Shown here one piece after another: positions 4,055 to 61,915 of a stretch of 64,000 nt of DNA. Location of the stretch: positions 4,278,001 through 4,342,000 of the forward strand of contig NC_060259.1 of NCBI RefSeq assembly GCF_921293095.1, written 5' to 3'. Position 1 is the first letter of the stretch. Every line of letters starts with the position of its first letter. A program made the translations under genes and the position numbers. The stretch comes from Ischnura elegans. Lineage: Eukaryota; Arthropoda; Insecta; Odonata; Coenagrionidae. The notes under the pieces are model-generated. The model saw only the letters and a program-made list of their open reading frames with translations, made no database searches and was not told the DNA's origin.

Positions 4055-4445
4055 ACCCAGATAGCATGCTAAACTTGCAGCAAGCTTGCTGCAAGCTTGT
4101 CACGACAAAGTTGCAAGTTTGCAGCAAGCTTGTCATGACAAGCCTGCAAGCTTGCGGCAAGCTTGAATCAAACCTCCTAGTTACGCTTTTTCAAACTTGC
4201 AGCAAACTTGTCGCAACAAACTTGCAACAAACCTGTCGCATCAAACTTGCAGCAAACTTGTCGCATCAAACTTGCAGCAAACTTGTCACATCAACCTTGT
4301 CGCATCAAACTTGCAGCATCAAACTTGCAGCAAACTTGTCGCATCAAACTTACCGCAAACTTGTCCCATGAAACTTGCAGCAAACTTGTTGCCTCAAACT
4401 TGTCGTATCAAACTTGCAGCATATTGTCACATCAAACTTGTTAAT
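4055..4445 (+). repeat. Minisatellite of AACTTGCAGCA words behind a CCCAGATAGCA head
   Basis: From about 4195 to 4400 a 25-26-bp unit (AAACTTGCAGCAAACTTGTC then GCATC) repeats about eight times with few changes. A more diverged block with inverted words (GCAAGCTTGC) lies at 4069-4170. The block starts with ACCCAGATAGCATGC at 4055-4069, which matches the terminal core of the CCCAG...GCACA elements found further right, so the array is best read as the subterminal region of a truncated member. The overlapping cysteine-rich reading frames here in three frames are a by-product of the repeat, not genes. Confidence 0.85.
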
Positions 4446-4650
4446 GTTTTGATAAAATAAAAAAAAACAAGGATGCAAATTGGCTTTGAGGATGTAAAAT
4501 TAAAAACTCATTTTCTTGAATTCCTGTTTATTTACACATATAATTACATATTTAGAGATTTATTTACATATCTTCATCAGCCTGAACCTCGGCGTGTTTG
4601 TTCATCCTGCCAATCCTTGAAGAGAAAATAGTTATAATTTTCTCCACCTT

Positions 4651-6237
4651 CTGCACAGAGATGGATGTCTTATTTTTGCAAGTGTTTATACATTTATGAT
4701 TAACTTTACCGTGCATTATTAGCAACGATCTTTGTTGTGAAGTGATTGTGTGAAGAGAGTTTAGTGTTACATAGATGCAGACCGGAGAGAGGTGGATATA
4801 TTATTGTGTTATAATGCAATGTAAGGTGTTTCATGATAGTTATTAATAAATTTTTTGCTCTTCCAATGAATAAATGTGTTCATGATATCATTCTGCTTTC
4901 ATTTGTGTGTCTTTGGCATTTAATTTCAGTGCCGGTAGTTAAGTTGGTGTATTTGTTTTGAATTTTGAGAAAGTGTAGCCATGGATATTCCAGAAGCCCA
5001 CGGAGGAAGTCATCACAAAAACAATAATATAATATGACTCGCTTGCAATAGTGCAAGCTTGGCGGTTGGCATATAATATACTTATTCATAAAACCATTTA
5101 AATATTAATTTAGCCGTCGTGAGAACGGCACGACAGTAGAGTTTTGTGTAAATATCGTTGACGAAATCACGTAACTTTTCACGCTCGTTTCATTTCGTAA
5201 CCTGCGGGAAAATCATAATGTAGTCGTTCTCGGCTGACTTTTTCTTCTAGTTGAAATTAATGTGCATTGTAAATTACGAAATGCTGAGTGCCTTCAGCTT
5301 TCATAATAATAGAAATACGAATAATAATAGAAATACGTAGAAATAATTATATTTGGCTAAGCGGCTTTTATATCAATTCAATAGTTTCGATCGATGCAGC
5401 AGTTTATGTCACGATTGATAATCATGTAGGCCATGTAAATCTAATGAAGAGAAAATGTTAGTAAACTACCAACACATTAAACCAATGCTATCACATTGTC
5501 GTTCTAATTCCCGAGAACTTTACACTCAGCGCTCCTTATGCTTTTGCCTGTTTGATGCAAAAATTTTGATGACCAACTGTTTCTGTGCAGAGATTGTTCC
5601 TTCTTGCACTGCGAGAGAATATCGCAATAACATGTGCATACGATAAGTGTATATTATTTCGGGAATATCTTCAACAAAGTTAATCAGAAGGTGGAGAAAA
5701 TTATGTTTGAAAGTTACGTCATTTCGTCAACGATATTTACACAAAACTCTACTGTCGTGCCGTTCTCACGACGGCTAAATTAATATTTAAATGGTTTTAT
5801 GAATAAGTATATTATATGCCAACCGCCAAGCTTGCACTATTGCAAGCGAGTCATATTATATTATTGTTTTTGTGATGACTTCCTCCGTGGGCTTCTGGAA
5901 TATCCATGGCTACACTTTCTCAAAATTCAAAACAAATACACCAACTTAACTACCGGCACTGAAATTAAATGCCAAAGACACACAAATGAAAGCAGAATGA
6001 TATCATGAACACATTTATTCATTGGAAGAGCAAAAAATTTATTAATAACTATCATGAAACACCTTACATTGCATTATAACACAATAATATATCCACCTCT
6101 CTCCGGTCTGCATCTATGTAACACTAAACTCTCTTCACACAATCACTTCACAACAAAGATCGTTGCTAATAATGCACGGTAAAGTTAATCATAAATGTAT
6201 AAACACTTGCAAAAATAAGACATCCATCTCTGTGCAG
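4651..6237. repeat. 1.6-kb inverted repeat (532-bp arms, 523-bp loop)
   Basis: Bases 4651-5182 are the reverse complement of 5706-6237. Identity is so high that both arms encode the same 69-residue chance frame (MNKYIICQPPS...). The loop, 5183-5705, is AT-rich with no gene. An 18-mer next to the left outer boundary (4634-4651) recurs inverted at the inner edge of the right arm (5687-5704), a signature of template switching or snap-back copying. It could be a foldback transposon, a recent inverted duplication or an assembly artefact; no target duplication is visible at the outer ends. Confidence 0.85.
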
Positions 6238-6690
6238 TGGATACATTGGCATTGGTAATGATTTCAACGCATCAATTTGTACCGTCACTACAAGTCTCTC
6301 GCAACATCAATAATAATCACTGTTTTCGGGGTTTTTCTTCTCACTAGTAATGACTTCATGCAAAATAAGATTTCACGTGATATAAAATGATTGAAAGTAA
6401 CATTTATCTTCTCCAAATAATGAAATCAACTAGTTAACGCGATCGATAGTTCACTCCGAAACATATATGTTTAGACACGAAATTTGTCACTCATGCCCAC
6501 TACTTTGTTAAGAATACAATAATTGAAGGCTTCAAACAATTTACGCAGCATTCCCGACCTCATTAAAGAAAATAATTACGCAAAACAACAAAAATAGTCA
6601 ACACTTTTCTTGTTTACCACTCAATCGCTAGCCGTGTCAAGAAAGACTGATGGGATAGAACAAAAGATTAGCGACACGCGCCACTTGGTT
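6238..6690. other. AT-rich spacer, nothing recognised
   Basis: About 450 bases of AT-rich sequence with no reading frame above background and no repeat shared elsewhere in the window. Confidence 0.4.
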
Positions 6691-6992
6691 CACGGCGGTT
6701 CATAGGAATTCCCATGGCCCTATGGGAATTCCCTATGTATTTTGATGGTAGCTAGCTGAAGCGCGGGGTTCGAGGGCGCGCTTCGCGAAGCTACCGTGGT
6801 AGCTAGTTTGAAGCTACGGAAGTAGCTTCAAATCCCATAGAGAATAAGGGTTGGAGCCTAATAAGCTACCGGTAGCTTCTGCAAGCTCCCTTCGCTGGAG
6901 CTTCAGCGTTAGAGAATACAAGTGGGAGCAAGTAGCTTAATTAAGCATCTTTCCACCAGAAAGCTACCGCGCTTCGAGTTAGAGAATAGACC
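6691..6992. repeat. Palindrome-rich block built on AGCTAC/GTAGCT
   Basis: The hexamer AGCTAC or its complement GTAGCT occurs about ten times in both orientations between 6750 and 6970, mostly inside AAGCTACCG or GTAGCTTC contexts. The block opens with a perfect hairpin (GGGAATTCC and GGAATTCCC around 6705-6735) and ends TTAGAGAATAGACCCCC. The phrase AGAGAATA occurs three times. This looks like a small non-autonomous element rich in inverted words, but I could not fix its left end or a target duplication. Confidence 0.5.
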
Positions 6993-16360: not shown

Positions 16361-16394
16361 AAATAAAGGAAGGGTAACTCTACAGTGTGTTAGT

Positions 16395-23109: not shown

Positions 23110-23118
23110 CTACAATTG

Positions 23119-23251: not shown

Positions 23252-23474
23252 TGTTGGGATCCAGGTGCCGGCCGAGAGAGTCAACTGAGGCGGCTGACTA
23301 ACGGAGGCGGCTGACTAACGCAGAGCCTGTGCGTCATCACCTGCCGTTCGCATAAAAGGCCGTGGCCCGGCGTGACGGGAGCAGTATACAACTCGACGCC
23401 AAGCCTCGATGTAACAGAGTGACAATAAATTGTTGAACCCGGAGTTGGTGTTTTAAAATTAAAAGAACCCTACA
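23252..23474 (+). mobile_element. Possible solo LTR (fossil)
   Basis: About 223 bp beginning TGTTGGGATCC and ending ACCCTACA, i.e. TG...CA borders typical of LTRs. It has a TATA-like CATAAAAGG in the middle (about 23351) and an AATAAA signal about 75 bp downstream, which sets the + orientation. It interrupts the K transposase between HQD and YAKDLL. No internal coding region is present. Family cannot be told from this; Ty3/Gypsy, Bel or Copia all fit. Target duplication not convincing. An old relic, younger than K. Confidence 0.5.
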
Positions 23475-24638
23475 ATCTTGATGCTCAATACAATACTTGG
23501 GGCTAAGCAAAATCCTCATTGCAACAGACAAAGACAAAAAATTATTATAAAAAGATGAATACTCCAATTTCAACTCTGTAAACAGAACAACAGGCCCAGA
23601 ATATAAAAGAAATTGGCGAAACTCTGTAGATTTCCACTTTCGAATCTCATCCAAACCCCGTGGTTTCCTGCTAAATTCACAGGGTACATGTCCAGCAAGG
23701 GAAAGAAGATGCATTGAAATTGAATTCTTAACCCTATGAGGAAACTTCAACGGCACTGGACCAGAAACCCATATAAAAATCAGGGTACGCATTACACCCA
23801 AGCACACTAAGTGCATATAGTCCAGTGGGAAATTGTCAATGAAATGTAAGTCAGGAATTCTGGTTAAAATAGTGTTTGTTACATGAAATTCACTATCTTC
23901 TTGGAGAAGAAAGCCCTCATTTGTTCTTGGAATGCCATCGCAGAGAGGAAAAGACATCCTGTGGTGTATCCAAACACCTTCTTGTTTGCACTTGGTGCAC
24001 GATGAATATCCTGTGTGTCCCTTGATGCCCAAAATGAAGGCCTTAGCTGGCGCATCACATATGAAGCCTTTTATAAACACCTTCACTTTTCTACCTTTCA
24101 CCATCATACCATTCTTTAATAGTTCTACCGCCTCTGATACAAAGTCATTTAAGAACTCACTACAGTCCGGTTTTCCTTTACCCAAATAAATCCCAATGGG
24201 AAACACAAGAGATTTCACTGATGGCAAATTGACTACAGATGCAAGAATCGGCCAACACTCACTTGAACCACTCTTAAACAGGGGACAACCATCAACACCA
24301 ATTAACAATGAAATGCTAGAGAAAGAGCTAGCAAGTGAGTCAATAACTTTTCTTATACTGCATTCCAATCCAAAGTATGAATAAAGCCCAGGATGCATAA
24401 CCTGAACAGAAACAGATGAAGGAGTTTTCAATAACGACCGGGCATCGCAAGGCAAATCGAAACATTTGTGAGTCCTTAGAATACACAAAAGAGCAGATAA
24501 AGATACAAGACTGATTTTGAATTGAACTGCCCAATTCCGAAGATTTTCCCGAAGGATTTCATTATCTGAGAGTTCACAGCCCTGACAAAAATAAACTCCA
24601 CCATGGTGGGTACAGGAAGGGTACAGGAAGGGTGGCAT
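23475..24638 (-). pseudogene. CACTA/CMC-like transposase core (element K)
   Basis: About 385 open residues on the minus strand. In order: LRNWAVQFKISLVSLSALL near the N-terminus; IGVDGCPLFKS; VFPIGIYLGKGKP; FICDAPAKAFILGIKGH followed by a CxxC knuckle (SSCTKCKQEG); FPLDYMHLVCLGVMR; EFSRKPRGLDEIRKWK; TEFRQFLLYSGPVV. These match a widespread animal transposase family that I place with the CACTA/CMC group. Candidate catalytic aspartates are in GVDG, ICDAP and PLDYMH. The C-terminus is displaced by a solo-LTR-like fossil; the open frame runs on to 23337 through it, so residues after HQD are not transposase. The first methionine at 24638 lies in repetitive GGGTGG sequence, so the true start is probably in an upstream exon not identified. 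Confidence 0.75.
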
Positions 24639-25172
24639 CCTTCATGGTGGGTAGTTACCCTTGCACAACCCACGCCCTACCCACCATTAAGGGTAAGGGT
24701 GCCTTCATAGCTCGGCGTTGCGTACTTGGGGGCGGAAATAACTCATCGCAGCAAGTTGGAGCCCTTCACAGCTCTGCGTTGCAAAAACAAATGAAAGGCA
24801 AAAAGCGTCGGCTCCTAAAAATCGGCCTGTGAGCATATCATCTTAGGATTTCGAACCAAACGCACAATACATATGCTGTTTTCTGCATGTTTACCCAATT
24901 TCATTTCTTAAAATGTTCTTCTTAACTATAAATAGCATTTGAAGTTAATATGGTGACCATAAAGTCGTTAATAATGCATGTAGTGATGGCCCTTGCCTAT
25001 GCATTATTATGACCTTTAAATTTTATTTCCTAACTCGGAATATTCGAAAAATAGCTAATTAGATACACTCAATGAACATGAGTAACGTGGAATATTATCA
25101 GGAATATTTATTAATGATAACTGTTGTTCAAACAGAGTGTCCTAGTCATGTTATCTAAATAGCTCTAACTGA
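24639..25172. other. Upstream side of the K transposase, no gene
   Basis: 24600-24710 contains inverted and direct copies of GGGTGG/CCACCATGGTGG and GGGTAAGGGT words. The rest is AT-rich. No exon or terminal repeat of K could be recognised. Confidence 0.35.
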
Positions 25173-25578
25173 CCCAGTCAGCACAAAAGATAATTTAGAC
25201 GGAAAATTTTCTGGTAATTTGGGGCGAATTTACCCCAGTAAGCTTTACCTCTTCTTTACCGCGTTATTACTCGCGTGAAGAATTGCCAACAGCGAAGTGT
25301 AAAATATATAAAGTGAGTAATTTATTTCGTTGTATGAGGTTGAGAAAAGTTTAAAGAAGAAAAGTAAAGTTCAATCCCAGATAGCACAAGATTTGTAATA
25401 CCACTGCAATACCACCACAATACGATCATATTACAAAATGGAACTCTTTGTATTCCAATTGTATTACAGTGTCAAATGTCCTCTAATACAATTGTATTAT
25501 ATTAGTATTACAAGGAAAAATACGAAACTTTTACAAATTGTATTTCTCCTGTAATACCATTGTAATACAGACAATTGT

Positions 25579-25732
25579 ATTTCCCTTGTCATACAGTTAC
25601 AAACACAGGATTCATCAGGTGTTATCTCCAGATCCATAGTTAGCAGTCTTCTATGAATGGGAAACTGTTAACTATGGATCTGGAGATAACATCTGATGAA
25701 TCATGTGTTTGCTACTGTATTACAAGGGAAAT
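25579..25732. repeat. Imperfect hairpin, 67-bp arms
   Basis: 25579-25645 pairs with 25666-25732 at about 85-90%. The core ATCTCCAGATCCATAGTTA is perfect. The loop is about 20 bases. It sits just inside the GTATTACA array of element A, and its outer bases contain that array's words. Confidence 0.75.
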
Positions 25733-26910
25733 GCGAACAAGGCATAAAAAATCAAAGGACAAGACAAATAATTTTTCCACTTAGGAGTATCCTCACTTAG
25801 GTATGCCTAACCTCAGGGTTATAGTATAATAGATTCGTTTAAAATAAATTTTTAGGGTAAAGGGGGTGTCTGCATTTCCCTGAAAAAAAAACTTGAGGAA
25901 AAAGCATGAGGAAAATTGATTGAAAAATCAGAATAGTTGACCAATCACATAAAACATAAATAATATAAGCCAAAAATAACTAATCCAACACAAATGCAAT
26001 GAAAAAAATATTGTTGACAAATAACAGTAACACTCGCAATCAATGGTAGCCCATGACTAGCCGGCATTTTTCCTGGAAAGGGAGTCTCAGGGAACATACA
26101 ACCTACCTGAAGAATGATTGAGGCTTTCCCAGCGTATAGAATCATGAAATTCCCAAGTAACCTTCCAGGATACCACATACCTTGAGTTTCACTGAATTTA
26201 GTGCACTTCCAGCTCATTGATACCCTCTAGTGTTATCTAAGCAGTAAAATTAAACAGATTGAGGGTAACAGGTGGAGGAGGATTTGAAAAGAGAAAATTG
26301 AAGTTCATAATTGCATTATGATTTATTCATGGTCAAAACACTTTCAAAATAAACATACTCCATTCTTGTAGCACTCTGGTACATTCAACTGATATTTTCC
26401 AGACAAAAAATTTGAATCAATCAAACAATTTAGCTTAACTTCCCAGACAAACACTTAAAAATAATCATCCTGGCCCAGTGCAAATCCCAGACGGCACAGG
26501 AAGTTTTCGTACCTAAATACGAGGGTGGACAATCAAGATACAAAAATCGCGCTTAGGAAGTTACTTAGAAGGTTTTGTTTCTTTATTTCCTTTAATGACG
26601 AAAAAAGATGCAAGAGGACTGGCAAATTCATATGCATCGATAAAATTGTATCTCATCGATAAAACTGTAGTCGGTCTGGGACTATTTTCTTTCGCGGGTG
26701 GTGCCATCGTGCCATATCCTCCTAGAAAGATCACATGCCTTCACAAGCCGTTGGAGATGGCATGGTTTACGTCACGTCTCACCACATTTCAGGGATTTTT
26801 GTGGTTAAGTTTGTGAAAAATAGAGTGTCTGGTAATGGTGAAGTTTCCCTTATTCTTTAATTTCATTCTCTGGGCTTCAGAAACGTGTTTGTGAGATATT
26901 TTTGTTAAAA

Positions 26911-27729
26911 ATGCCTTCCGTGTGTGTATTGTCGGGATGTAATGGAAACTCCGGGACATGGCTCAAGTTTTTAGCTTTCCAAAAGATCCTGAGTTGAAGA
27001 AGAAGTGCATTTGGGCGATAAGAAGAAAGCATTTCACCCCTACGAAAAACTGTGAGGTATGTACTCTTTCTCGCTGTAATTATTTGGATGTAATTTTAAG
27101 TTAGAAGTGGCTTCGGGATGTTGATGCATCAACATCCCGAACTATTCAGTACTGAAGTACTATAGTACTATTCAGTACTAAAAATGGTGATTCAAAATAT
27201 TGTAGCAGCAATTCTTTTGAAAATTCTTGCATTTTAGTTGTCTTTTTTGTATTAATTCATTCGGTAAACGTGTGGTTAAAGGAGAAACTAGGAATAAGCT
27301 GCCAAGTTTATAGGATCGAATTTTGCTTCTTAGCTTGCCCTATGGTGTATTACACGTCGGCTTTCATCGTTTCAAATTATCTTATGCTATAGTTTAAAAC
27401 AATAAAAATATCAGGCATACAAATATTTACTATATTTACGAGCCTATAGTAATTTGATTTCTCATGTAGAAATACCAAAAATTGGAAATGATTTGACCTA
27501 ATAAGTTACATGGTATTTTATTATTTAGTAATTTTAGGTGTGTGAGCTTCACATCGCACCTTGTGATATCAGAAAAAAATCTGTGGCCTTGGACGAGAAG
27601 ACGAGGAGAAAATTCTTGCTGAATTGAAGGTGCCCAGATTGGAGGAAGGTACCATTGCTTCACTGTTACCTGTCGCCAAGAAGACAGACATTGTGGCAGA
27701 AGTGACATATTTGTGGATGTGGATTTGAT
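26911..27729 (+). pseudogene. THAP zinc-finger remnant, two exons
   Basis: THAP domains are C2CH zinc fingers that bind DNA, often at the N-terminus of P-element-type transposases. Exon 1 (26911-27057) starts MPSVCVLSGCNGNSG (C-x4-C). After a one-base frameshift near 26972 it continues FPKDPELKKKCIWAIRR KHFTPTKNCE, ending at a GTATGT donor. Exon 2 starts at 27538 after TTTTAG with VCELHI, which supplies C-x2-H. It continues through DIRKKSVALDEKTRR and, after a second frame change, RLEEGTIASLLP. All four zinc ligands and the conserved W are present. The rest of the transposase is missing. Confidence 0.7.
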
Positions 27730-28508
27730 TTGTGCAAGTTGGTGCAGTGATAGTGGACGTTCATCGGAGAAAGTATTGACGATAGTTTGTATGTATCGAC
27801 CAGTCCTCTTTTAAATAATTTTCTATTCGAAAGAGAATAAGAGTAATTGTTTCGCTAAATTAGATGTGGGATAGAAGAGAAAATTGGAAATATTATTGTG
27901 GTTGACAATAGAAAATACATAATATATGTATTGTATTTCTGTGGGTTTTTTCTTTCCTGCCTCTTTAAAATATCTTGTGGTGGTGACTTCATGCAAAGTA
28001 AGTATAAAATTGGAGGTGTGATCTAAGAGATAACATGTTTTATTTTACAAGTGTTTATGCTGGTGATTTGGCAGGACTTTCATATTTTTAATAGGTTGAT
28101 ACATTTACTGCAGTGACCTAGGGACTTTTACTCATACCAAATAATTTTTCAAATACTTAAGCGCCTGATATGGGTAAGTTTTAGTAGCTGAGACTGAACT
28201 ATACGTTAATTTTTGCTTGCATTTTGATGAATTCGATCATACTAATAGCAGATGTGTCAGCAATCCTGTTTCATCGGCAATTTTTATTTAAAAATTTTAT
28301 TTCGTCAGGCTTTAGGGTAAGCTTTTTAATGCTCGTGGGCTATGTGATGTCTTATTTAGTGTCAAAATTAATAAGAATTTACTCTCATTAACATCTCAAG
28401 GTTTCCAAGTAAGTACGAGCCACTTAACAATGCTGGATGCTGGGGGTGCGTGAATTAGACGTGAGAAACTCATTTTTCGCAGAGTTATTTAAGTGGCCGA
28501 GTAAGTTT

Positions 28509-28655
28509 TGTAAGTTCTCAATGGGTAAATAATACTATATCATGAATTCTAATTACCATGAAAAACTCACAACCGACAAAAACTTTGTCGGTCGTGAGTC
28601 TTTCATGGTAATTAGAATTCATGATATGGTGTTATTTACCTATTGAGAACTTACA
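28509..28655. repeat. Near-perfect 72-bp-arm hairpin
   Basis: 28509-28580 pairs with 28584-28655 with only a few mismatches and a 3-base loop. Such a stem would fold as RNA or cruciform DNA. It contains ATTCATGATAT and GTCGGT(C/T)GTGAGT blocks. It lies inside element B, so a small foldback insertion or a product of terminal rearrangement is likely. Confidence 0.85.
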
Positions 28656-28990
28656 ATTCATAATGATTCGTATCAAGGTTCTCGCTACGGTCGGTAGCTA
28701 TCGATTGTGTTGCGTTCGATACATTTTTCGATCGTGCGAGTTACGATATATCTAATTTCGACCTAATCGATTGAGATTAGCCTGAGTGCCGTGTTCCTGC
28801 GCGCTTCGTATCCAATCGTACATGCTTAGTAGCGGACATTCACATGCTGCGTACGCGCTTCGTCGACAGGCCGCGAACGGAAATTATCCATTGACGAAAA
28901 GCGACGGAGCGGCATAGTATCCCCTTAGTCAATGGGTACTATGTACATACGAATTAGATACGGAGGGTTCTGTGCCGTCTGGGAATCGAT

Positions 28991-29989
28991 TCAGGCAGAG
29001 ATGTTACCTTCATAGTCTCCGATGTTATTTAACATGTGTCAAACTTCAGGACAAAGTAAGTAATAAGCATTTTTTTAGTTTTTTCCAAAATAATTTTTGG
29101 CCCAAGATATATTCCTCCGAACATGGACCCATGGGTGCTACTTTTCACATTAGATTTCGGACAAAATACTAAAATGCTCATATATAAGCAAGAGTTCAAG
29201 ATATTTTGCTAATTTCAGTTTTATTTGAAAGATAATAATTTTCTAACGATACCTTGGGACAAAAAAATCAGTAACACACCAACATCTGAAGAAGATGCAA
29301 CAAGAACACATTGCAGAAGAGTAGGGACGGATAGAAGCTGCACGTTAAGTGCTTCACTTTGATTTTGCTGAGACCTGGTCAGTGTTTCTACCACAAGAAG
29401 TTCAAGGATATCACTGGAGTAATGACCAAGTTTAAATTTTTACAGGAGTGACATATTTTAAGAACAAGGCCACAAGTGTAGCAGTTATAAGTGATGGCAG
29501 AGGACATGAATCAGCACATGCATTGTTGGCAATTAACAAAATTCTTCAACCACTGCAATCACAGGTAGAACATATCATAATTATTTCCGATGGTGCCGCT
29601 AGTCACTTCAAAAACCTTACCAACTATTCGAACTGGCAATGTTTAGGGATTAGAATTTTTGAGAAAAAATGTTTTTATGAAAAAATTTCAGCAAGAGAAT
29701 GTGGACACAAATTTTCAATTTAAATTTAATCACAAAATTATTACCTTTAAAAAAACAGTAATAAGTATATTATCTTGAACCGTTCCTGAGCATTTTAGTA
29801 TTTTGTCCAAAATCACAAGTGAAAATTATAGCACCCGCAGGTCCATGTTGGGTGGAATGTATCTCGGGCCACAAATGTTTTTGGACAAAACAAAAAATAC
29901 TTACTACTTACTTTGTCTTGAAGTTCGACGTATGTTAAATTCAATAACATACGAGGTATGAAGGTAAGATTTTTTCTTAGGCTGCCTGA
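28991..29989. repeat. Inverted pair (about 195-bp arms) flanking a transposase fragment
   Basis: 28991-29180 is the reverse complement of 29788-29989 at about 80%. Both arms contain an exon-like end (CTTCA(G/A)GACAAAGTAAGTA in sense), with a GTAAGT donor preserved, so the repeat seems to be a duplicated piece of a transposon gene. Between the arms lies the DDE-like fragment. Confidence 0.7.
29301..29722 (+). pseudogene. DDE-like transposase fragment (SDGAASHFKN family)
   Basis: One frame with three in-frame stops (29322, 29343 and 29430, approximately): GRIEAA, LHFDFAETWSVFLPQEVQGY, HWSNDQV, then VAVISDGRGHESAHALLAI and HIIIISDGAASHFKN. It matches a recurrent animal transposon protein pattern (EVQSxHW...Q, VxVSDxxxHD, SDGxASQFKN) in which the aspartate of SDG is probably catalytic. 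The downstream HGKGxxDGxGG part is absent. I know the pattern but not a formal family name. It belongs to element A or to an insertion in it. Confidence 0.6.
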
Positions 29990-31254
29990 ATGGATATGAA
30001 CTACTCCGACTACATTCTAATTCAAAAAGTTAAAAACAAAGTACATGTACATGATGCAAGAATGCTAATAATTGTAGCAAAGCAATATAAAATTAATTGA
30101 ACATTAACTTATTATTTGTCCTTTCTGAAGCACTCTGGTACAACCATTTTGATATTTCTCGGACATAAACAACTTGCCCTCGTGAAGTCCCTTCCTCCGG
30201 GCAGAAACTGTAAAGGTAAAGGAAATGCTATCATTACTCCCTGGGGTATACAGGAAAAATGCTTGAAAATTATATTAAACTCCTGAAGCATTTAATTTAG
30301 GAATAGGTTCCTCTATTCAGTTTAGGGTATTTGGTTTTCCCCAGAGAAATAAGTCAAAAGATGAAGTTATTACTCCATGGGGTAATACAAATTACCTAAA
30401 ATTTCGTTGCATTCCAAATACCTTAATAACAAACCTCCCCTATCATCACATTTACTGATGTACCACAAAACTGCATCAGGAGTTTTATACGGGAGAAAAT
30501 TTAAAAAAATGAAATTGGCACTTCTTCAAGTCTTCACAAGATTGGGTGACCTTTGACTTTCACGAAAATGTAGTAAACACCCAAAATTCTCTCTTGCCAC
30601 ACTAATTCCATTCATTAAAATTATACTTTTGTTGGCTTCCCTTGGTCTATGTTGTGTTGATGTTAGATTGACTATTATATCCGTAGCGATAAATAATGAA
30701 TAAAACGAGACAGCAACACGTCACTAGTACATTAACTGCATTATCAATATGCCTAAAATTTCTACAGCAGAACCACTTTCCAAGCTTAAAATTTGTATGC
30801 ATGCATCGATTAAATCATTGAATGCCAGCACTTACCTGAAATAACAGCCGTGGGTTCTAGAGTTGACACGGGAGCTTGTAGCACAGATGACCTGGGAATC
30901 TATTAAGGCTCACTAAATATCGCAGAATGGTAGGAAATACTACAGTATTTCACTGTCGCAGCCGTAGTTTAACAACAACGAAGAGTCCAAAATCACAACG
31001 AAGCCGGGGTCAAAATCGTGAGAATAGTCCAAACCAAATGAAGCAAGGGGAAAACCGAGAGAAAAAGAATCCAACACGGCGAGGGGTCAAAGCAATCTAT
31101 AAAGCGAACCAGAAAATATGAAGAAGAACTCTATCTACCTTCTCAGCACTTCTCATAACGAGGTATAAGGAAAGTGAGTTTTAGCAAGTTCGACGATACG
31201 TATTCCATCGTTCTTTTGTTTTCCGGGCGGGTCTGTATACAAGACGTTTGAATA
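29990..31254. other. Interior of element A, no clear gene
   Basis: AT-rich with short frames. A basic frame at 30927-31121 (many R, K, N, Q) has no motif. 30120-30200 shares about 40 bp with 26355-26410 in the same orientation. Nothing else recognised. Confidence 0.3.
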
Positions 31255-31347
31255 CAACTGTAATACAGTTGTATTACAAAAATCGGTACAATTTGTAAGG
31301 GTACAAAAGATTTACCATTTGTATACAAATGGTTGTGCTGTCTGGGA

Positions 31348-34051
31348 TATAGCCACAGCGGCGCTGTAGTGATATTTTGCAAACTATTTTCGATTTATTT
31401 TCGCAAATAGTTTCACTTTATATACCTACACGCTATCGATGAAAGGCTATGGTCATTAACAAAAATTCAATTACTTAAAATTTACCTGATTATTTTCGTA
31501 AATAAATAGATTAGAGTACTAATTTTCATCGGATAATTATTTTCGTTTAAATTTTATGAAAGGCCGAGTTCAAATCTTGACAGTTGGCTATTTTGGATCC
31601 TCAACTGCAATTTGCGACTAGTGGAACGTACGAGTGAACAAGTAAACAATGAAGAAGGAACATGAACTACTAGTGCCGAAGTAACGTGCCTGGTAATTAT
31701 AATTTCTATCTATTACTGGAGCATGAAGTAAACTAAACTAAGTTGCCTGATACAATGCTGAAAATAGTTGAATATAATTCAGTTGAAAATTTAACCAGAG
31801 AGTTGCATCACTTTTTGTTGTGACGCCATGGTGAGGCAATATACTTTTTAATAACCTTTATAACTGTAATTTGGTTCCCTCAGCCTTTGCTAAAGTATGG
31901 CGCTCTTTATTTACAGTGATTTCATTGAAAATTTCAGGTGAAAAACTTTGGAAAAGCAATTTTTAGGATTCTCGTTGGGGTGAATTGTTTCCTCGTAAGC
32001 ATGCCATTAGGAGTTCGGTGTGGAAGCTCTTGTCACCAAGTGCCTAACGGAAGGAAATTAGTTCTAAGTTTAACATTGTATCTATTTTAAAAGAAATCAA
32101 ATTGGCAATAGGGAACTTGGATATATTTCAGATATAATCAATAGCCCCAAAATTATATAAAAATATATGTTTGCATACCTCGGTGAAAGTTTTTTTATTA
32201 TTTTATGACGTGGTTTGCGATATTTAATGCATCAAAGTTCACGAGAATTTTCAAATGCAAGTGAGAAGCGAAAACGCCCGATCATTGGCTGGTAGAAAAG
32301 TGACGTCATAGTTCAGTACGAGGCACGGCGGCACGGCCATAGTATAGGTTGCATACTTGAATACATGCGACGGCGTGGTTATGATTCATTTATTGAAGTG
32401 CAGACTTATCGGAGTTGTTCATTGTGACTTCAGGGCTATTATTTGATCTATTTCTCCTCCATTGAAAGCGATAGATTGCGTAAAGATGAAGGCATATGGT
32501 TATTCTTAGGCTGATCCTAGCAAGCTTCCTGTTACTGATTCCATCATGATAACAGGGTATTTTAGTGAAACTGTAGACTTCGTCGGCTCGGAAAGTCGAT
32601 GCCGAGAAATGGAAAGGTAGCTGATGTGCATCTGTAATGTTTTATAGTTCATAACAAAGTGAGACTTGCGTATAATATTGGCGAAAGCGTATACTCATGT
32701 GAAATGTGTATTCTTTTGGCAGTCCGGTAGAGTCTTATGGTGAACTTATTTCCACCTCGAAGCTGTCGATGATACTTTCAACTTAAAAATACCTTGCCTG
32801 GAGGGCGACAGGAAGCTCTGAGGAAGCCAGACTATTAATGTTTCAATTTAGTAGCGATAATATAGACGAACTTCCAACACAATCTACCATCTTGTGACTA
32901 AAAACCCCGAAGCCACTTCCTATTCTGCAGAAAGAATCGGTCAATCGCACTTCGATCAATATAATAAATACAACGTCTTCAGGTGTTAATAAGTTACTTT
33001 TGAAATGAAATACTTCCTAAATTAGCATTAAAATGTGCATGTTTTCCAAACAGAGTCTTTAATACATTTTGGGAGCTTTTCTCACGATATATCTGAAACC
33101 TTCTCTAAAGGCGAGCTCATCGTCATTGCGATCGGTTGTCACTTAAAAATTCCGTATCGGAAATCCTAGAGGGATGACTTTCGACGATGACCGTGATCAC
33201 CTTCACTCTCACTATCACTGGAACCCGTGGTGAAAATATCATCCCAATCCAATATCTATTTGGTTTTAATTGGGGAAAGAGCAACATAGAACTGCACATA
33301 CTTTGGGTTTGACTTTCCCTCAAACACACCATTTCCCCTGTGGTGCACATCAGTCCTATCTTTATACGATGGCCTGACAGCCTTTAAATGGATCCTTGGT
33401 TTATCCTGACAACCAACTAAATGGAAATTGCTGATCCACACATGTCCATTCTTATCTCCATAATTTCCAAATCAAAGGCCGCGGAACATTCCTCTTGTGA
33501 CTCAACTATTTTTTGAAAAGCAAGCAACAGCGCAGAATAAAATCAAAGAATGGTGCGATTCATTTTTTGTGACCACCTCTGGATTCCATTCTTTTTCCAT
33601 CTACAACTTCCTTTATCTTTCGGCGTAAACTATGGGACAAGATAATGTTTAAATATTTTCATTTATTTATAACAAAATATAAGTTCTAAAAATACCCAAA
33701 AGCCATTTTATTAATTCGCACTGATGAGTGTAAATTAATGTGGAAGATGAATGCTGTAGACGTAGTAGTTTTCCTTAGGTTGAGTTGCAAAGTTCATGAA
33801 ATTGACAAAACGGCTAATTTTTCGGTGCGCGGAGTCATTTATTGCACTGACCGTGTCTACATTTTTCAATTTTTTTGAAATAAAATAAATCAGATTTAGG
33901 ATAAAATTTCCTTTAAAATGACGTATAGTTCATTTTTATAGCATGTAGTGAAGCCAGGATATACATTTGCAAAGTGCAGCGGCACATCATTTTGACGCCG
34001 ACAGTAGAAGAAAACGCTGTCTTCTTGGCTGGCACTCGAATGCATGAGGAT
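31348..34051. other. Interior of candidate element E, weak coding traces
   Basis: Mostly AT-rich. At 32485-32610 an interrupted frame reads ADPSKLPVTDSIMITGYFSE then TVDFVGSESRCREMER and stops at a GTAGCT donor-like site; it looks like old coding sequence of unknown family. 33256-33441 (minus) gives VWISNFHLVGCQDKPRI, also unassigned. A promoter-like cluster lies at 32280-32310: CATTGGCT (CCAAT box, inverted) 12 bases before TGACGTCA (CRE). No function is claimed. Confidence 0.35.
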
Positions 34052-34754
34052 CAACGTTGCTCTATATTTTCATATTTCCTCCCTTGATTTTAAACATCAT
34101 GGAATTTTCTATGTCCTTCCGTAACTGAAATTGAACAAGTACCTTAATAATTTGAGTCCATCGTAACCATCGAGAAACACCTATCTCGATTTTTGTTGTG
34201 AAGTTGAGTTTTTATTCTAGGGCGGCCGAATTATCAAAAAATCTCAGTTTCAAGTTATTCAGTCAATGAAATATGGAAATATTATTTATATTAAAGTTAT
34301 CTTCGCTCACATAGCACACGGGTTTATCATTCCGTTTATTAAACTCTTATTTTTCCGTAACGCTCATCCCGACAGACGGCTTGCATCGAGGCTTTTCTTC
34401 TAATTTCCTCCGTGGGAATGCAGACGAAAATTTTTTCTGGGGTGTTATTGCACAGAGGAACAATGCACCACTTGTAATTTTTCCTTATTTTACCCACGTT
34501 CTCCTTTAAACGCAACGTGGCTCTTCCAAACCTGCAGTTACTGGGCTTGGATCTTGGACTCGTACTGAACTATGACGTCACAGCCAAAGATTAGTGGGGG
34601 CGGTATTTTTTAGCCCGCGAAACTCGGGCGACTTTTGGGAGTCATTTTCTAGGGTATAAACTGAATTTTAAGCGGAAAAAAGTATATTGCGGTACTAAGT
34701 GTTTACTGTAGTATATCAGCATACTGTTTATAAAAAGTATGCAATTTCCCTATT
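34052..34754 (+). repeat. Dispersed repeat R1, copy 2 (703 bp)
   Basis: Same orientation and same borders as copy 1 (1268-1989). It lacks about 20 bp present in copy 1 between two CCAAAC motifs. Contains a full CRE palindrome TGACGTCA at 34573-34580. Flanks are unrelated to those of copy 1, so the borders mark the repeat ends. Unclassified. Confidence 0.75.
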
Positions 34755-34821
34755 CCTCTTAAAACATAACTGTTATTTATTTCAGTCATCTCTCTTTCTT
34801 TGAGTACGTATGTCCTGGGGG

Positions 34822-37800
34822 ATTTCATCTCAAATCAGGCAGAGGGGTGTCAGGTGACCATCGCCGATTTCTCTGAAATTTATGTATGTGAAAGCAGTAT
34901 CCTTATGATGAATAACGATGACTTTATCTCTGCTCAGAACTGAACCGTCATAAAGTTACCGCCCCTTGAACATTGCAGTGTCAGGCCTCAGAGTAAAAAA
35001 TGAAAAATCACATAAATGCTGATTACTAAGGAACCATGGCCCATAAAGCAGTGGTTTTAGTTTTATTTTGAAGAGAATTTATTTATGCACATTATGACAT
35101 AACTTGCAAGTCATTTGAAGCAATAATAAACAAATAGGACTTGTTTAAACAATAAAAATTAGTCATTATTTAACAATTTATTACTAAAAAAGGCCACCTT
35201 TTATTTTCTTTAAAATTTCTCAGCGGCTAGTTTAAATGTTCTGCTTTCAATTAAAAAAATAAAAAAAGGTAGTATTTTTATACTTTTTGTTTTAAGGCTT
35301 GTCAAAGTTAGGCATGTTTACGACTATTTTACACCAAGATTGCATACCTTCAAGGGGGGAAAAATGCTGTTTCATTCTACTTAGCATTCATAACAGTGAA
35401 AAGTTCATATCTGAATGATTGGTTACATCTATTGACTGAAAGCAAGTCCAATCTTGTTTACTTCCATGGCATCCCATGTGTGCAAACACCCACTGCTACT
35501 GGCTGGAAACGGTGAATGAGTCGCAATTTGCTCAGAGTATTATTCAATGGCAGTTCACATAAGTCTTTCTTCTACTTTGGGCCATGTGGAACATTTCGAT
35601 GGACCATGTGGATGCATAAGTGAGACACTAATGTCATTCTCTTCTAAAGACAATGCAGTGATTTTTGAAATCAGGTTTGACCAGGTTTTTCGGAAACACA
35701 CAATGAAGTCATTCATGGTGAGATTTTGAGTACTGTACGTCATTATATCTGAATTTGTTAGTGTCACAGCCTGTTTGATTGTGTGGATTACAGAGCGAGC
35801 TTTAGTTGTCCCGTGTCTGTTAACTACCAAGCATGAAACTATTGATGCCATGTATAGGTGCACCTTTCACCCAATCATTTTTTTTGTCTACATAGGGTGG
35901 TTTCCTATTATTGTTCATTTGCCTAAATCGAAAGATTATTACTCCTGGAGAACATATATCTCGCTTTTAGATTTTGAAATGATGATATCTGTTATTTGTG
36001 ATTAAATGATAAGTGAAAATTTTCAAGCGTACGAAAACGCGACGGCTAAGTATGAATGCTGCGAGAAGCCCGTGTGACCTCTGGCTGCTTGCTGCCGAGC
36101 ATGGCGGTAGTGTAGAGTTCCTTGCTAGCAGGTAGTGCTTGGTTTAAATAAGGATTATTAATACCCTATCAAACAAAGAAAATTCTCTGACCAAAGGCAA
36201 TTTTAAGAGGGGATTGTTAAGTGATGTTTCTCGGAGCTCTGTGCCTCATGTATACATTGGTAATCTCAGGTGATGTAAAACTCCTATCTACTCGTATAGC
36301 ATTTAGGTCCCTGTGACGTCATGTGGAGTGGGATCGCATCGGTGCCAATCTATCCTTTTTCAAATGAGGTTAAAATTGACCATTAACATTCGTCTAAACA
36401 GGGATTTCTAAAAATCAAATAATTTGTATATTATGAATACACTGAAGGTGGGTAACGAATCGCAATCAATGCCTTTCGTTTTCTTTGATGAAAGAAAATG
36501 AGAGGAATGAACCCTATTTGGCTAGTTTAACATGTGTAAAATGCAAAAGTTTGATATTAGGCAAGGATATACTCACATGTTGTACAAAGGACTTGTTTGA
36601 ATTTACTTGCCACAATTGAAATATCTCAGGTTTCAGTTTGTGTCATAATTTTTTACCAATTCTTGCAACTCTATCAGATGGACCCTATTCATGTCCTGTT
36701 GCATTGAACAACCACCAATGACTTTCTTCCTGTTTAAGACTTTTCTCCAAGTCAAATATCTGATATGTTTTTTTAATTAGCGGCTGACTTTTCTAAAATA
36801 TATGATTTATTTCTCCATATGATATCTTTTTACTCTATTGTTCTTCTATTTGATTCATCCTAAGAAAGGCATGTGCAGTGTCCTGTGAGAAATCATCTGA
36901 AGTGCCTGCATACCTTAGTTATTATATTCCACACAGGTTAATATTGATATCTGTACTTTTTGCCAGTCATACGGTTGTACTTAATCTGGAAGAATCACAC
37001 TCCAATTCTCGGAAAAGTTGAAATGAAGCACCAACTCCACACCAATTAGTGTTACCAACTTCTCTTTTTGAATAGCTTCCCTTTCTTTTTTCCAAATATG
37101 GTGATGATAAACACCTTTCTTGGTTCAATCCTAAACTTCAGCAATGAATTTCTCTGAATGGATGTTTTGTCTGAATGATTCTCAATGGCAGTGAACACAT
37201 CTTGCTGATTAGGAGTTACACAAGAACAATCTTTATCATCATCCAAGTAAAATGAAAGCACAATGTTGATTGAGCACTATGAGGAAGAGGATGCCAGCAG
37301 TATACATCAGCATTGCCCCATATTCCGAGTTTTTTTTTTAGCTCCGCATGATATGTCAATCGTATGTTTGGTTGAAACTGGAAAAGCAGCCAATTTATGT
37401 TGTTTGGATTAACTTGTGGAAAAGAATGATAAAATTTGAACATGGTCACTCATAGACATTTCACTCTCGCTTCTTCAAAAACTGCTGAGACATTATTTTA
37501 CCATGAAGTACATATTTGACATTTATCACTTTCATTAAGTTAGTAAATTCTTGCCTAATATGAAACTTGCATTTTACATATGTTAACAAGCTAAATTTAG
37601 ACAAAAAAATAATTAGGTGAAAGTAGCACCTGTACATGGCGTCAACAGCTTCATGCTTGGTAGTTAACAGACACGGGACAACTAAAGCTCGCTCTGTAAT
37701 CCACACAATCAAACAGGCTGTGACACTAACAAATTCAGATATAATGACGTACAGTACTCAAAATCTCACCATGAATGACTTCATTGTGTGTTTCCGAAAA

Positions 37801-38674
37801 ACCTGGTCAAACCTGATTTCAAAAATCACTGCATTGTCTTTAGAAGAGAATGACATTAGTGTCTCACTTATGCATCCACATGGTCCATCGAAATGTTCCA
37901 CATGGCCCAAAGTAGAAGAAAGACTTATGTGAACTGCCATTGAATAATACTCTGAGCAAATTGCGACTCATTCACCGTTTCCAGCCAGTAGCAGTGGGTG
38001 TTTGCACACATGGGATGCCATGGAAGTAAACAAGATTGGACTTGCTTTCAGTCAATAGATGTAACCAATCATTCAGATATGAACTTTTCACTGTTATGAA
38101 TGCTAAGTAGAATGAAACAGCATTTTTCCCCCCTTGAAGGTATGCAATCTTGGTGTAAAATAGTCGTAAACATGCCTAACTTTGACAAGCCTTAAAACAA
38201 AAAGTATAAAAATACTACCTTTTTTTATTTTTTTAATTGAAAGCAGAACATTTAAACTAGCCGCTGAGAAATTTTAAAGAAAATAAAAGGTGGCCTTTTT
38301 TAGTAATAAATTGTTAAATAATGACTAATTTTTATTGTTTAAACAAGTCCTATTTGTTTATTATTGCTTCAAATGACTTGCAAGTTATGTCATAATGTGC
38401 ATAAATAAATTCTCTTCAAAATAAAACTAAAACCACTGCTTTATGGGCCATGGTTCCTTAGTAATCAGCATTTATGTGATTTTTCATTTTTTACTCTGAG
38501 GCCTGACACTGCAATGTTCAAGGGGCGGTAACTTTATGACGGTTCAGTTCTGAGCAGAGATAAAGTCATCGTTATTCATCATAAGGATACTGCTTTCACA
38601 TATATAAATTTCAGAGAAATCGGTGATGGTCACCTGACATGATTTTGCACTATCTGCCTGATTTGAGATGAAAT
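34822..38674. repeat. 3.9-kb inverted repeat (1.07-kb arms, 1.7-kb loop)
   Basis: 34822-35890 is the reverse complement of 37598-38674, near 98% by eye. The arms contain a frame of about 100 codons (35555-35863 minus, 37636-37932 plus) including NLTMNDFIVCFRKTWSNL, vaguely like the end of pogo/Tigger transposases; very uncertain. The loop 35891-37597 has minus-strand fragments such as RLTYHAELKKKLGIWGNADV that look like decayed coding. No target duplication at the outer edges. It may be a foldback transposon or a segmental inverted duplication. Confidence 0.8.
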
Positions 38675-38939
38675 GGCCCTCCTCATGAATGTGGGTTTTA
38701 TTTTTGTTATTATTTCTCTTTCACCAAGGGTTATTTCATAATATATGTCGTGTTTGTATATGTAGTTACTTTTCGTCATTCAATAAACAGTTATTTTTCA
38801 ATATCAATGTCGATTTCGTTCATTTATCGTGCATATGAATGCCTATAGCGTATTGCAATTAGGTACTGTTAGTTCACAATAGCACCAATAGATGGGGTGT
38901 CGTCATGTTTACTTTGAAGCTCCACAGATGGCTCTGATG

Positions 38940-39130
38940 TCGCATCGGGAAGTTTTACCCGGAAAAAGTACGAATTTTACCCGTGTTTTACCATGAAATT
39001 ACCCGAATTTTACCACTTAAATTTGCAGATATTTTACCCGTTACCATGCAGGTTACCCATCTTTTACCACAATTTTACCCGTGTAAAATTTGGGTAATAA
39101 TGGGGTAAAATATCTTTTGTGCTGACTGGG
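38940..39130 (-). repeat. TTTTACCCG word array at the right end of E
   Basis: About eight copies of TTTTACC(C/A) or its complement GGTAAAA in 180 bp, directly inside the terminus CTGACTGGG. The spacing is irregular (15-30 bp), unlike a satellite, and fits subterminal binding sites of a DNA transposon. 38675-38939, just outside, is AT-rich with no gene. Confidence 0.65.
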
Positions 39131-44540: not shown

Positions 44541-44606
44541 GAAAATTAGACTAAACCTATCAGTAAATTCAAGAGCAGTGTCTTTTCTGATGAAGTTAGC
44601 CATGTC

Positions 44607-52183: not shown

Positions 52184-52187
52184 TTAA

Positions 52188-53973: not shown

Positions 53974-53981
53974 GGAGATAC

Positions 53982-57799: not shown

Positions 57800-60677
57800 T
57801 TAGTGGTAACTTTTGCGCCCTTTTTTCTCTTGAACAAAAATGTGCAATCAAAGCACTAGGCAGACCGACGCCGCCTTTGGACATTCGTCTACAGCAAAGT
57901 TCTCGAGGCAAAAACTACACTCGTATATTCAAGTCCCATCTGTATGATAGAAATTCGTGGATTTGTGGATGTGAAGTAACCAATAGATTCTTTTGCTTCC
58001 CGTGTCTTCTATTTTATAAAGGAAAGGACACAACATGGACAACTACTGGAGTTTCAGACTTGAGTCATCTTACCCAGAAAATAAAAAAAAACATGAAACA
58101 CCTTTGTATCATAGGAATGCCTGCTTGGATTTATCCATCTTAGGTCGTACTGAAATAAGGCAACAACTCAGTGAAGCTTTTAGGCTTAATGTTGAGAAAA
58201 ATAACGACCAAGTCAGGAAAAATCGGTATGTCCTTTCAAAAATAATTGATTGTATTCGATTTTGTGGAGAGTTTGAACTAGCTTTGCGTGGACATAATGA
58301 AAGAGATGACTCCAATAACCCCGGTATTTTCAAAGGATTAGTGAATTTCTCAGCTACATTAGACACTATTTTGAAATCACACCTGGAAGTTGCCACTGTT
58401 TTTAAAGGTACGTCCAAGGAAATTCAAAATGACCTGTTAGATTGTATGCTGCACGTCTGCAAACTACATATTCTTGAAGAAATTCGCTCAGCAGATTTTG
58501 TGTCTGTGATAGCTGATGAAACTACAGATGTGTCTGCTAAAGCCCAGATGGTTGTAGTGTTTCGCTCTGTTCTCAAAAGTGGGTTGCCTATCGAGAGATT
58601 TTGGACATTTCTAAACCCTAAACATCATGATGCTGAAACATTATTCGCCTGCATAAAACATGTTCCTGTGGAAGTGCTAGGAGATGCCAAAAACAAACTT
58701 ATCTCACAAAGCTATGATGGTACAAATGTAATGAGTGGCCAATTCAATGGTGTTCAGACACGTGTCAAGGCGGAGTATCCAAATGCACACTTTGTACATT
58801 GCTACGCGCACCAGCTCAACTTGGTCATGGTTCAAGCAACAAGTCAAAACAAAGAAGTGAGGGTATTTTTTGCAAATCTTCAAGAGGTGTGTACCTTTTT
58901 AGCCAGTCCTCACAGAGAACTGACATTTTGGATGAAATACTTGGAAAACGACTTCCTTCTGGCTCTTCAACAAGATGGAACTACAATTTAAGATCCGTAT
59001 TAGTAGTTCACCAAAATATTCAAGAATTAATAGAATGCTTTGAAAAAATTGAAGAAACAAGCAAAATGACTTCTACTTTGAATAAAGCTCAAGGACTTAA
59101 ACTGAAACTGCAGCAACCAGAGTTTAAATACTGGCTCGAATTCTTTTCAAAGGTTATGCCTCATGTAGATATTTTGTATAGCTCACTGCAAAAGAAAAAT
59201 ATAAACCCTGTTTGGGCAAAGGAAGCAATTTCCTCTTTCAAAAGAGAAATACAGAAAGTAAGGGAGAGTGTGGAAAGCCTGGCCACAGCAGATGAATCAG
59301 CAGAGCCTAGACCAAAGAGAAATAAGGTCGAAAACTGGCAAACATTGCGAAATGCAGCTGCCAAGGAAGTTTGTGACGCTATAGCAGCAGGGACAGAATG
59401 CAGATTCGAATTCACTGGTCATCTAGTTGCAGCAAACTTGTTTGACAAAGAAAATATGTCCGGCTATAGAAAAAGGTTTCCTGATGATATCCTAAACACG
59501 ACAATAGAATCATTTGGTTTTCTTGACAAAAATAAACTAAGATGCGAGCTTCAGCTTATTTACAGCAGGGAAGATTTTAAAGAAGTTGAGAAGGCCACTC
59601 ATTTTTTGTCATTCCTTCTTGAAAACAATTTAGAAGAATGTTTCAGTGAAACGGTGAAACTGCTAAAAGCACTGATCACAATACCAATGACAACGGCAGA
59701 AGCAGAACGTTGTTTTTCATGTCTGAAAAGAATTAAAACCTTCCTCAGAAGCACAATGGACGAAGACCGGCTCACAGCACTTACCATGATGTCAATTGAA
59801 AAAGAGATGGCCCGCAAAATAGTGGACTTTAATGAAAAGGTGATTGACCATTTTGCCGCAAAAAAGGAGAGAAGAATGGACTTCATGTTTAAACATACAA
59901 CAACTGCAGGAGTCGCTTAAGGGTTCTTATTAAAATTAGTGTGGTTTAAGTCTCATTTTAACAATGAATGTAACTTAACTGTTTAGAATATCTGTAGCTG
60001 TGCGATTTTATTAGTTAAAATATACAATTGTAAAAAAATTGCCAAAGTATTAATTGCAACTTGATATTCTGATTACAGCAAGAATCTCAACTCACGGCTC
60101 AGCTTTCGAGAGTGAGGATGGGAGTGTCATTTTGAGAGGTTGGTGATTCGAGTTTAAAAAATATCAAATTTCATGCAACTTCTTTATTTCATGATGTCCC
60201 TGCGAGGAAAAATCTCGGGGGGGAGACGCCATTGAGCCTGCCTCATATAGGTGTTTGTGAATTTGCAATTGCCTAAATCGTGTGTACATCAAATTAAATA
60301 TGCTGGGGTTCTATTACCATTAAAAACTAAGAATAAAATATTTCAATATGCAAGCATTTGTAGGCTGCTAGTGAATTCACAAAAACTTAAATAAAATAAT
60401 ATCATTCTTTATTTTTCCTTTTCCATAGTACAACTTTTATAAAACGACAATCCATAGTAAACTAAATTAATTGCATAAAAATATAATTGTAGATACTTAT
60501 TTTCAAATAACTAAATATTTTTCAAAGCAACCAAATTGGGATCAAAATAGCTTTAAAATAGTTTTTTAAGCTCTAAAAATATAAAATTTTCCTGGGATTC
60601 TCCCTCTATGGTTGGAAGATAGACTACCCGCACCTCCCGGTTGAACCTCCGAAATAAAAGTTCACCAGCCGCCACTG
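57800..60677 (+). mobile_element. hAT element (ZMYM/TTF-type), right end recognised
   Basis: A long transposase remnant (57829-59920) is followed by 757 bases of 3' sequence ending at 60677 in AAGTTCACCAGCCGCCACTG, whose complement CAGTGGCGGCTGGTGAACTT is a well-known hAT end. The left end is poorly kept: TTAGTGGTAACTTTTG near 57801 may be its degenerate partner. No 8-bp duplication is visible. Bases 59921-60676 contain a short GC-rich patch (60190-60245) but no further gene. Confidence 0.65.
57829..59920 (+). pseudogene. hAT transposase (TTF zinc finger, DUF4371-like, hAT dimerisation)
   Basis: Nearly full length, about 690 residues over three frames. Frame one (from 57829; no ATG until 57877): ALGRPTPPLDIRLQQSS, then a TTF-type finger (WICGCEVTNRFFCFPCLLF). 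A slip in the A-run near 58085 leads to frame two: RKNRYVLSKIIDCIRFCGEF, ELALRGHNE, ADFVSVIADETTDVSAKAQM, SQSYDGTNVMSGQFNGVQ, HFVHCYAHQLNLVM. A second slip near 58908 leads to frame three: LPSGSSTRWNY and, at the C-terminus, MTTAEAERCFSCLKRIKTF (hAT dimerisation motif), ending at 59920. Catalytic-site residues appear present (DETTD; the W of TRWN). Only two frameshifts and no stops suggest a young loss. Similar domesticated proteins are ZMYM1-like. Confidence 0.85.
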
Positions 60678-60683
60678 CCTGAC

Positions 60684-60822
60684 ATACACAGAGTTTTTTT
60701 ATCAAGGTTGTTTCTTATTGTCTTTTTATGTTTGTAAGTACCTATCTTTTGACGATGTCTATTGTGATTTTACATCATTTAATGACAAATAAACGGATTG
60801 ATTTGATTGATTGATTCATTTA
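60684..60822 (+). mobile_element. LINE 3' tail (RTE-like)
   Basis: TTTTTATGTTTGTAAGTACC, a GACAAATAAACGGATTGATT block and a short TGAT repeat (GATTTGATTGATTGATTC) form a typical RTE-type LINE 3' end with microsatellite tail. Only about 140 bp remain. It abuts the hAT element's right end. Confidence 0.5.
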
Positions 60823-61747
60823 AAATTTTCTTATACTATGCCTGTGACTTGATCATTTTTCATTACGATTAAAGTAAAGACAACTGGGTCTTGGTGATAA
60901 ATGTGGTAATTGTATACACTTTAATTGGAAAATCTTACAAAATAACCATTATGAAATTTTAAGTAGTATATATTAAGAAATTTTTGGCATCTATTTGTAA
61001 CTATTTTTTATTTATTTTAATCAGATTAGTTTACATTGAAACGCATTGTGTATTACGTGTGAAATATGAAACTAATTATGAATAGCAGCATAGCACTCTA
61101 GAATAATTGTTATTTTTTTAAGCTGAGATATGGGCTGCTAAAAACTTGTTCTTTTTTCTGTTTCTTGGCATTCATTACTACAGTTTTTATAATAGTTATA
61201 TAAACATACGTAAAGTATTTTCTATTTTCAAACTATTCTCAACATGAGCCGAAAATCAATTGTGTCCCCAATATTCTTTATTCTGTCTATATTGATGTTG
61301 ATGTTATTATTTATTTAGGTGACTGAAACAGTAAACATAGTCCTAGAGGTAGGTAAGTGTAACTTTCAGGGTCAATGAAAATAGTTACGTGATAACATAT
61401 AAGCTGATTTGGGGCCACACTCTAAACTATCATCTCTTCAAATCAAAATTTTCATTGATGCAAGTAACAACTAGTTCAAACATCCCACTAGCCTCGTCAT
61501 TAAATCATATTGCATCAAACGTAGGACATTTACTGTACTACACATTACAGTATATAGCCTGATATTTACAATAAAATGTTGTTCATTAATTGTCATGAAG
61601 GAAGCTTATTTGTTAATATAATGAATATAATTTCAACGTATAAATATAATTTTCATGTGTGTTGGTTGTAACCCATGTTTGTTGATTTGAGCTTTCACAA
61701 ACTTTTTACAATGTTAGTTTAGACTGGTAGAACGTACGAGTGGTACA
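60823..61747. other. AT-rich, no gene recognised
   Basis: Highly AT-rich; no reading frame or repeat copy seen. The 15 bases GAACGTACGAGTG at about 61731-61743 also occur at 31623-31635, just outside the right end of element A, which hints at a shared flank or insertion context. Confidence 0.4.
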
Positions 61748-61915
61748 TCCCAGACGGCACAGAAACCTCCGTATCTAATTCGTATGTGCATAGTACCCAT
61801 TGACTACTGGGATACTATGCCGCTCCGTCGCTTTTCGTCATGGATAATTTCCGTTCACGGCCTGTCGACGAAGCACGTACGCAGCATGTGAATGTCCGCT
61901 TCGGTACGGTTGTTT
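61748..61915. mobile_element. Truncated copy of the element B right terminus
   Basis: Begins TCCCAGACGGCACAGAAACC and matches the reverse complement of 28818-28983 at about 95%: CCGTATCTAATTCGTATGTG, a CTCCGTCGCTTTTCGTCA block, and a CGGCCTGTCGACGAAGC block. Homology ends near 61912. No mirrored end is found to the right, so it is a single terminus, probably truncated. Confidence 0.8.

Follow-up and report, generated by a model that had tools for sequence, protein, structure and literature searches.

Nested transposons with CCCAG-type termini in Ischnura elegans, probable members of the animal TRC/EnSpm form of the CACTA superfamily

The animal elements of the CACTA superfamily that were named TRC are described by DeMarco et al. 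(2006; PMC1636069) as having termini that start with CCC and flanking direct repeats of 2 bp. The terminus is given in that account as CCCAGTCAAC for Aedes and as CCCTAGTAGCACCGAATATTTGTAAAA, given also as CCCTAGTAGCACC..., with 2-bp repeats for Tribolium, and 2-bp repeats are listed for 7 of 14 copies of SmTRC1. The Hydra element Spongebob_HMa (EnSpm-4N1_HM), with the end CCCAGCCAACATTGAC and a 2-bp duplication, is classed as CACTA/TRC in PMC4298943, and the termini of CACTA elements of Daphnia are aligned in a figure of PMC2884549. In the plant CACTA elements, as presented in PMC2613891 and PMC8195511, tips of 13 bp are conserved and the subterminal repeats, which are bound by TNPA-type proteins, vary; the TNPA of En/Spm is stated to bind such repeats (PMC2613891). 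A study of soybean CACTA elements from 2008 proposed that conserved transposases most likely go together with conserved tips, and diverged binding proteins with diverged arrays (PMC2613891).

The window analysed here is a stretch of 64,000 nucleotides of the Ischnura elegans genome (NC_060259.1, positions 4,278,001 to 4,342,000). Within it, the pattern CCCAGWYRGCAYR was matched exactly at eight places when both strands were counted, compared with a mean of 0.05 and a largest count of 1 in 100 dinucleotide-preserving shuffles, a contrast which is generous because the pattern was fitted to the same sites that were then counted. The first C of each end lies at 4056+, 25173+, 25376+, 26486+, 28983−, 31346−, 39130− and 61749+. 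A terminal core of the CCCAG type had been proposed from a reading of the sequence only, and it is real, with three of the eight coordinates in that reading being exact and five being off by one. All eight ends start with CCCAG, as the pattern dictates, and six of them make up three inverted pairs, designated A, B and C (Table 1). The proposal that three of the elements are nested was also borne out, with C lying in A and A lying in B.

Table 1. Elements, lone termini and transposase-like fragment located in the window
Feature	Coordinates	Strand	Description
Element B	25173..39130		Outermost element, about 14 kb including A and C; 20-bp end in common, CCCAGTCAGCACAAAAGATA
Element A	25376..31346		Inside the left arm of B; ends match the core, flanks AT/AT
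Element C	26486..28983		2.5 kb, inside A; ends CCCAGACGGCACAG
Terminus D	61749..61900	+	Second copy of the right end of C
Terminus E	4056..4441	+	CCCAGATAGCATG, behind which extends a long array of the AACTTGCAGCA type; tandem arrays, 8 exact words
Transposase-like fragment	23340..24641	−	434 aa, Mirage/CACTA-type (CMC), weak match to DUF1258

Short direct repeats were found immediately outside the tips of each pair. Those of B (GA/GA) and A (AT/AT) fit a 2-bp target-site duplication at two of the three pairs, and those of C (AAT/AAT) match over 3 bp, which is the length known from plant CACTA elements. Taken singly these flank matches are weak, and jointly they are less so. A pairing of 4056 with 39130, both of which are flanked by GA, was also considered and was dropped, as the 20-bp end and the words at 39130 match those at 25173. 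Empty sites, which the sequence-only reading had suggested as a check, were sought by joining the two flanks of each of the three elements and comparing the resulting sequences with the window. No copy in the window spans the junction of A or of B, and for C there is a weak candidate, a paralogue at 29840–30002 with 76.5% identity over 166 aligned bases, which reads across the junction if a 3-bp duplication is assumed and in which only about 6 bases to the left of the duplicated bases back the junction.

To describe the sequence behind the tips, 7-mers in common within single ends and between ends were counted over 250 bases from each tip (203 for the left end of B) after removal of the 13-base core, with 300 shuffles for each of 36 comparisons, and the positions of individual words were taken from exact matches on both strands of the whole window. 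Three reiterated words were found to belong largely to single elements. All eight copies of AACTTGCAGCA begin at 4072–4411 in E, five of the seven copies of TTTTACCC are located at the right end of B (38953–39110), with shorter TTTACC-type words at its left end, and 8 of the 11 copies of GTATTACA lie within the ends of A, where GTATTACA and TGTATTAC words occur in both orientations at both ends. The fourth word, CGTATCTAATTCG, is present in two copies only, one at each of the ends at 28983 and 61749; since these two ends are homologous and each has it only once, it does not count as reiterated, and the four word families proposed earlier are thereby reduced to three.

The degree of self-reiteration was reached by none of the 300 shuffles at 4056, at either end of A or at the right end of B, and by 2, 20, 50 and 228 of 300 at the right end of C, the left end of C, the left end of B and 61749, respectively. 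Both ends of A have 88 7-mers in common (shuffle mean 13.5) and both ends of B have 34 (shuffle mean 12.0), in each case with 0/300 shuffles reaching the count, whereas no excess was detected between the ends of C (7 against a mean of 6.7, reached by 148/300). The right end of C and D have 110 7-mers in common (0/300 shuffles) because these ends are homologous. Sharing was weakly raised between the left ends of A and C (6/300) and between the left end of C and the right end of A (5/300). E and D have 20 7-mers in common (mean 6.3; 0/300 shuffles), which is unexpected for separate dictionaries, and it may be that the dense array of E inflates this count. A clear word array was absent from C and D in the 7-mer test. 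The view that each end carries its own reiterated word behind a constant terminus therefore holds fairly well for A, B and E but not, by the 7-mer test and the word counts, for C and D.

The sequence-only reading knew of no named superfamily with this terminus, a statement which is superseded by the published TRC/EnSpm elements of animals, which belong to the CACTA superfamily and whose termini are described as starting with CCC next to 2-bp duplications (PMC1636069, PMC4298943). Like SmTRC1 and the elements of Aedes and Tribolium, A to C have inverted termini starting with CCC, with 2-bp direct repeats at A and B, and the motif repeated inside the terminus of SmTRC1 is comparable to the arrays found here (PMC1636069). 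The Aedes terminus and the tip of B are equal at 9 of 10 bases and differ at one, and a likeness of this level to any of the cores after CCC was reached by 696 of 200000 random sequences starting with CCC. For Tribolium and Hydra the likeness was equalled by 20105 and 20254 of 200000 such sequences, respectively, and with about 10% of random sequences matching as well it adds little beyond CCC or CCCAG. Spongebob_HMa, of which partial copies are reported from insects, shares the CCCAG start and the 2-bp duplication, but over the 9 bases thereafter it agrees with the core at no more than 4 (PMC4298943). Further differences from TRC are the 3-bp flanks of C and the length of the core, which is stated as CCC in the account of TRC elements (PMC1636069) and here extends over 13 bp common to the elements of the window. 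The ATon elements of Aedes, which insert at AT, were rejected as relatives, as ATon-I and -II are described as ending in ATAGGCC and so are different (PMC3422177).

With En/Spm, Tam1 and Tgm the elements have in common a constant tip and, apparently in A, B and E, family-specific subterminal repeats in both orientations, whereas the tip of these plant elements is given as CACTA... with a 3-bp duplication (PMC2613891). No counterpart of TNPA was identified here. As a set, A, B and C do not show this combination of a CACTA start and a 3-bp duplication, and since their inverted repeats begin with CCCAG they are not filed as plant-type CACTA elements.

A transposase was searched for inside A, B and C by scanning 17 of 196 listed ORFs (≥35 aa) against Pfam in three scans with different thresholds (E up to 1, 10 and 0.1, respectively). 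No match to Transposase_21 or DUF1258 was detected among these 17 ORFs, a further difference from the TRC elements. A transposase-like ORF lies outside A, B and C, to the right of E and to the left of B (Table 1); its match to DUF1258 (E 3.1e-05) scores 24.1 bits, below the curated cut-off of 33.1, so that its likeness to the Mirage transposases is weak. In PMC3985635 DUF1258 is assigned to the Mirage transposases, which are placed close to the Transposase_21 of CACTA. When this 434-aa fragment was compared with the window by tblastn, no significant copy was found in A, B or C, with the best match having an E of 0.048 and 26% identity over 77 residues (32488–32718). It should also be noted that an inverted repeat of 1246 bp (11720–12965 and 21862–23107, 98%), enclosing about 8.9 kb, adjoins this ORF on its left, where direct repeats of about 540 bp (14841–16362) are also located.

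Element C contains a match to a THAP domain (26943–27101, E 0.0098), which is below the Pfam cut-off. THAP is a transposon-associated domain, and it is the only one of the sub-cut-off matches in A, B and C to which weight is given. The others were taken as chance matches, all being below their cut-offs: Zds_C (27439–27810, in C on the strand opposite to THAP, E 0.0037), AcnX (29436–29720, E 0.2), TMC (33126–33383, E 0.02), and AtaL and VPS13_C (35558–35866, E 0.026 and 0.038). With no CACTA transposase found among the 17 of 196 ORFs scanned in A, B and C, their superfamily membership rests on the structure of their ends, and the interpretation that suits them best is that of non-autonomous or decayed elements. 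Searches of IMG/VR found no relative of the transposase fragment, no confirmed case among 13 stretches that matched a pattern for the 29436–29720 fragment, and no occurrence of the CCCAGACAGCACA plus TGTATTAC pattern; the CCCAGWYRGCACA plus TTTTACCC pattern was found in one stretch (L001), 1.4 kb of which is GC-rich, unlike the window, and this was taken as chance. A search of solved structures returned a single insignificant match (E 1.6), the single-sequence structure prediction of the transposase fragment (mean pLDDT 37) was too poor for a structure search, and Rfam and tRNA scans returned nothing.

A number of other explanations were weighed against the assignment to TRC/EnSpm. It is hardly credible that chance or simple repeats account for the eight matches: the pattern was indeed derived afterwards from the sites themselves, but eight matches were counted where 0.05 are expected, the ends pair in inverted orientation with equal flanks, and the ends of A and those of B each have words in common. 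The two lone ends leave more room for doubt. It may be that only A, B and C are true elements, with the match at 4056 having arisen by chance next to an array of satellite type and 61749 being a truncated fragment, an explanation which is compatible with a TRC/EnSpm origin of A, B and C and which we regard as a serious one, albeit not the one we favour. The core at 4056 is unexceptional when taken alone, its PWM score of 15.7 falling within the range of 20 simulated windows (highest 18.6, mean of maxima 14.7), and a partner scan of the window found none for it; yet this end is flanked by GA and its array starts directly behind the tip, as in A and B. Similarly, no partner was found to the right of 61749 within the window and its likeness to the right end of C (28831–28984) stops after 154 aligned bases, but over these the identity is 95.5%, and D is thus at least a copy of the end of C.

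It is unlikely that the elements belong to another, or an undescribed, superfamily with duplications of 2–3 bp, in which the CCCAG start would be a coincidence and the transposase perhaps kin to the THAP-like remnant in C. Such an origin would agree with the THAP match, with the failure of both the scan of 17 of 196 ORFs and the tblastn search with the fragment to find a CACTA transposase in A, B and C, and with the weak likeness to two of the three published TRC ends. However, the THAP match lies below its cut-off, the Aedes tip is equal at 9 of 10 bases, the duplication length and, in A, B and E, the array layout are as in TRC/CACTA, and the window does contain a weak match to a transposase of the Mirage/CACTA type.

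The elements are therefore considered likely to represent TRC/EnSpm, the form in which the CACTA (En/Spm, CMC) superfamily of cut-and-paste DNA transposons occurs in animals; they are treated as new members of a known superfamily and no new superfamily is defined. We infer this membership, and with it both proteins (transposase and binding protein) and the whole of the biochemistry given below. The short CCC-type tip would be recognised and cut by a transposase that an autonomous relative provides from elsewhere, and a second, fast-changing protein encoded by the elements, comparable to TNPA of maize En/Spm, would bind the subterminal words and join the two ends. Insertion would duplicate two (sometimes three) target bases, and the order of insertion would have been B first, then A into B and then C into A. 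By analogy, the layout and mechanism of plant CACTA elements may also hold for these elements. The idea of a constant catalytic end with a changing DNA-binding part, put forward by the sequence-only reading, was already in print for plants in 2008 (PMC2613891).

More speculatively, the genome may hold no fewer than three and perhaps four families of TRC/EnSpm with a common 13-bp tip, CCCAG(A/T)(C/T)(A/G)GCACA (4056 being less exact), and unrelated words, in which case one transposase could cross-mobilise all of them, with family-specific DNA-binding proteins choosing the ends that are joined. This is suggested only tentatively and we consider it rather doubtful. If true, it would represent a natural modular system whose tip and array evolve independently of each other. 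This one window suggests that the tip which animal CACTA elements have in common can exceed CCC and be accompanied by plant-like family-specific arrays; such a longer tip together with the arrays would help to annotate elements of this kind without a transposase.

A number of other features were observed. Directly behind E lies a fold-back, a near-perfect inverted repeat of 528 bp (4651–5178 and 5710–6237, 99.8%) with its arms 531 bp apart. Element B includes an inverted repeat of about 1.08 kb (34822–35893 and 37595–38674, 97.8%) and one copy of a dispersed repeat (1265–1989 and 34049–34754, 92.8%). Inside A, the ORF at 29436–29720 (+), for which no Pfam family fits apart from the AcnX match given above, encodes ISDGAASHFKN, which we take to be a peptide of transposase-like insect proteins. 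A 368-bp repeat with 100% identity (9778–10145 and 12975–13342) overlaps part of the ORF at 9860–10246. A hAT transposase is encoded in two overlapping frames at 58020–59917 (+), with matches to DUF4371 (E 2.1e-21) and to the hAT C-terminal dimerisation region (E 1.4e-08), and the peptides at 43887–44514 (+), with the motif GVPQG...FSDD, presumably resemble a non-LTR reverse transcriptase. At the end of the window, an ORF with an RRM RNA-binding domain (63125–64000, −; E 7.7e-14) is probably a host-gene exon.
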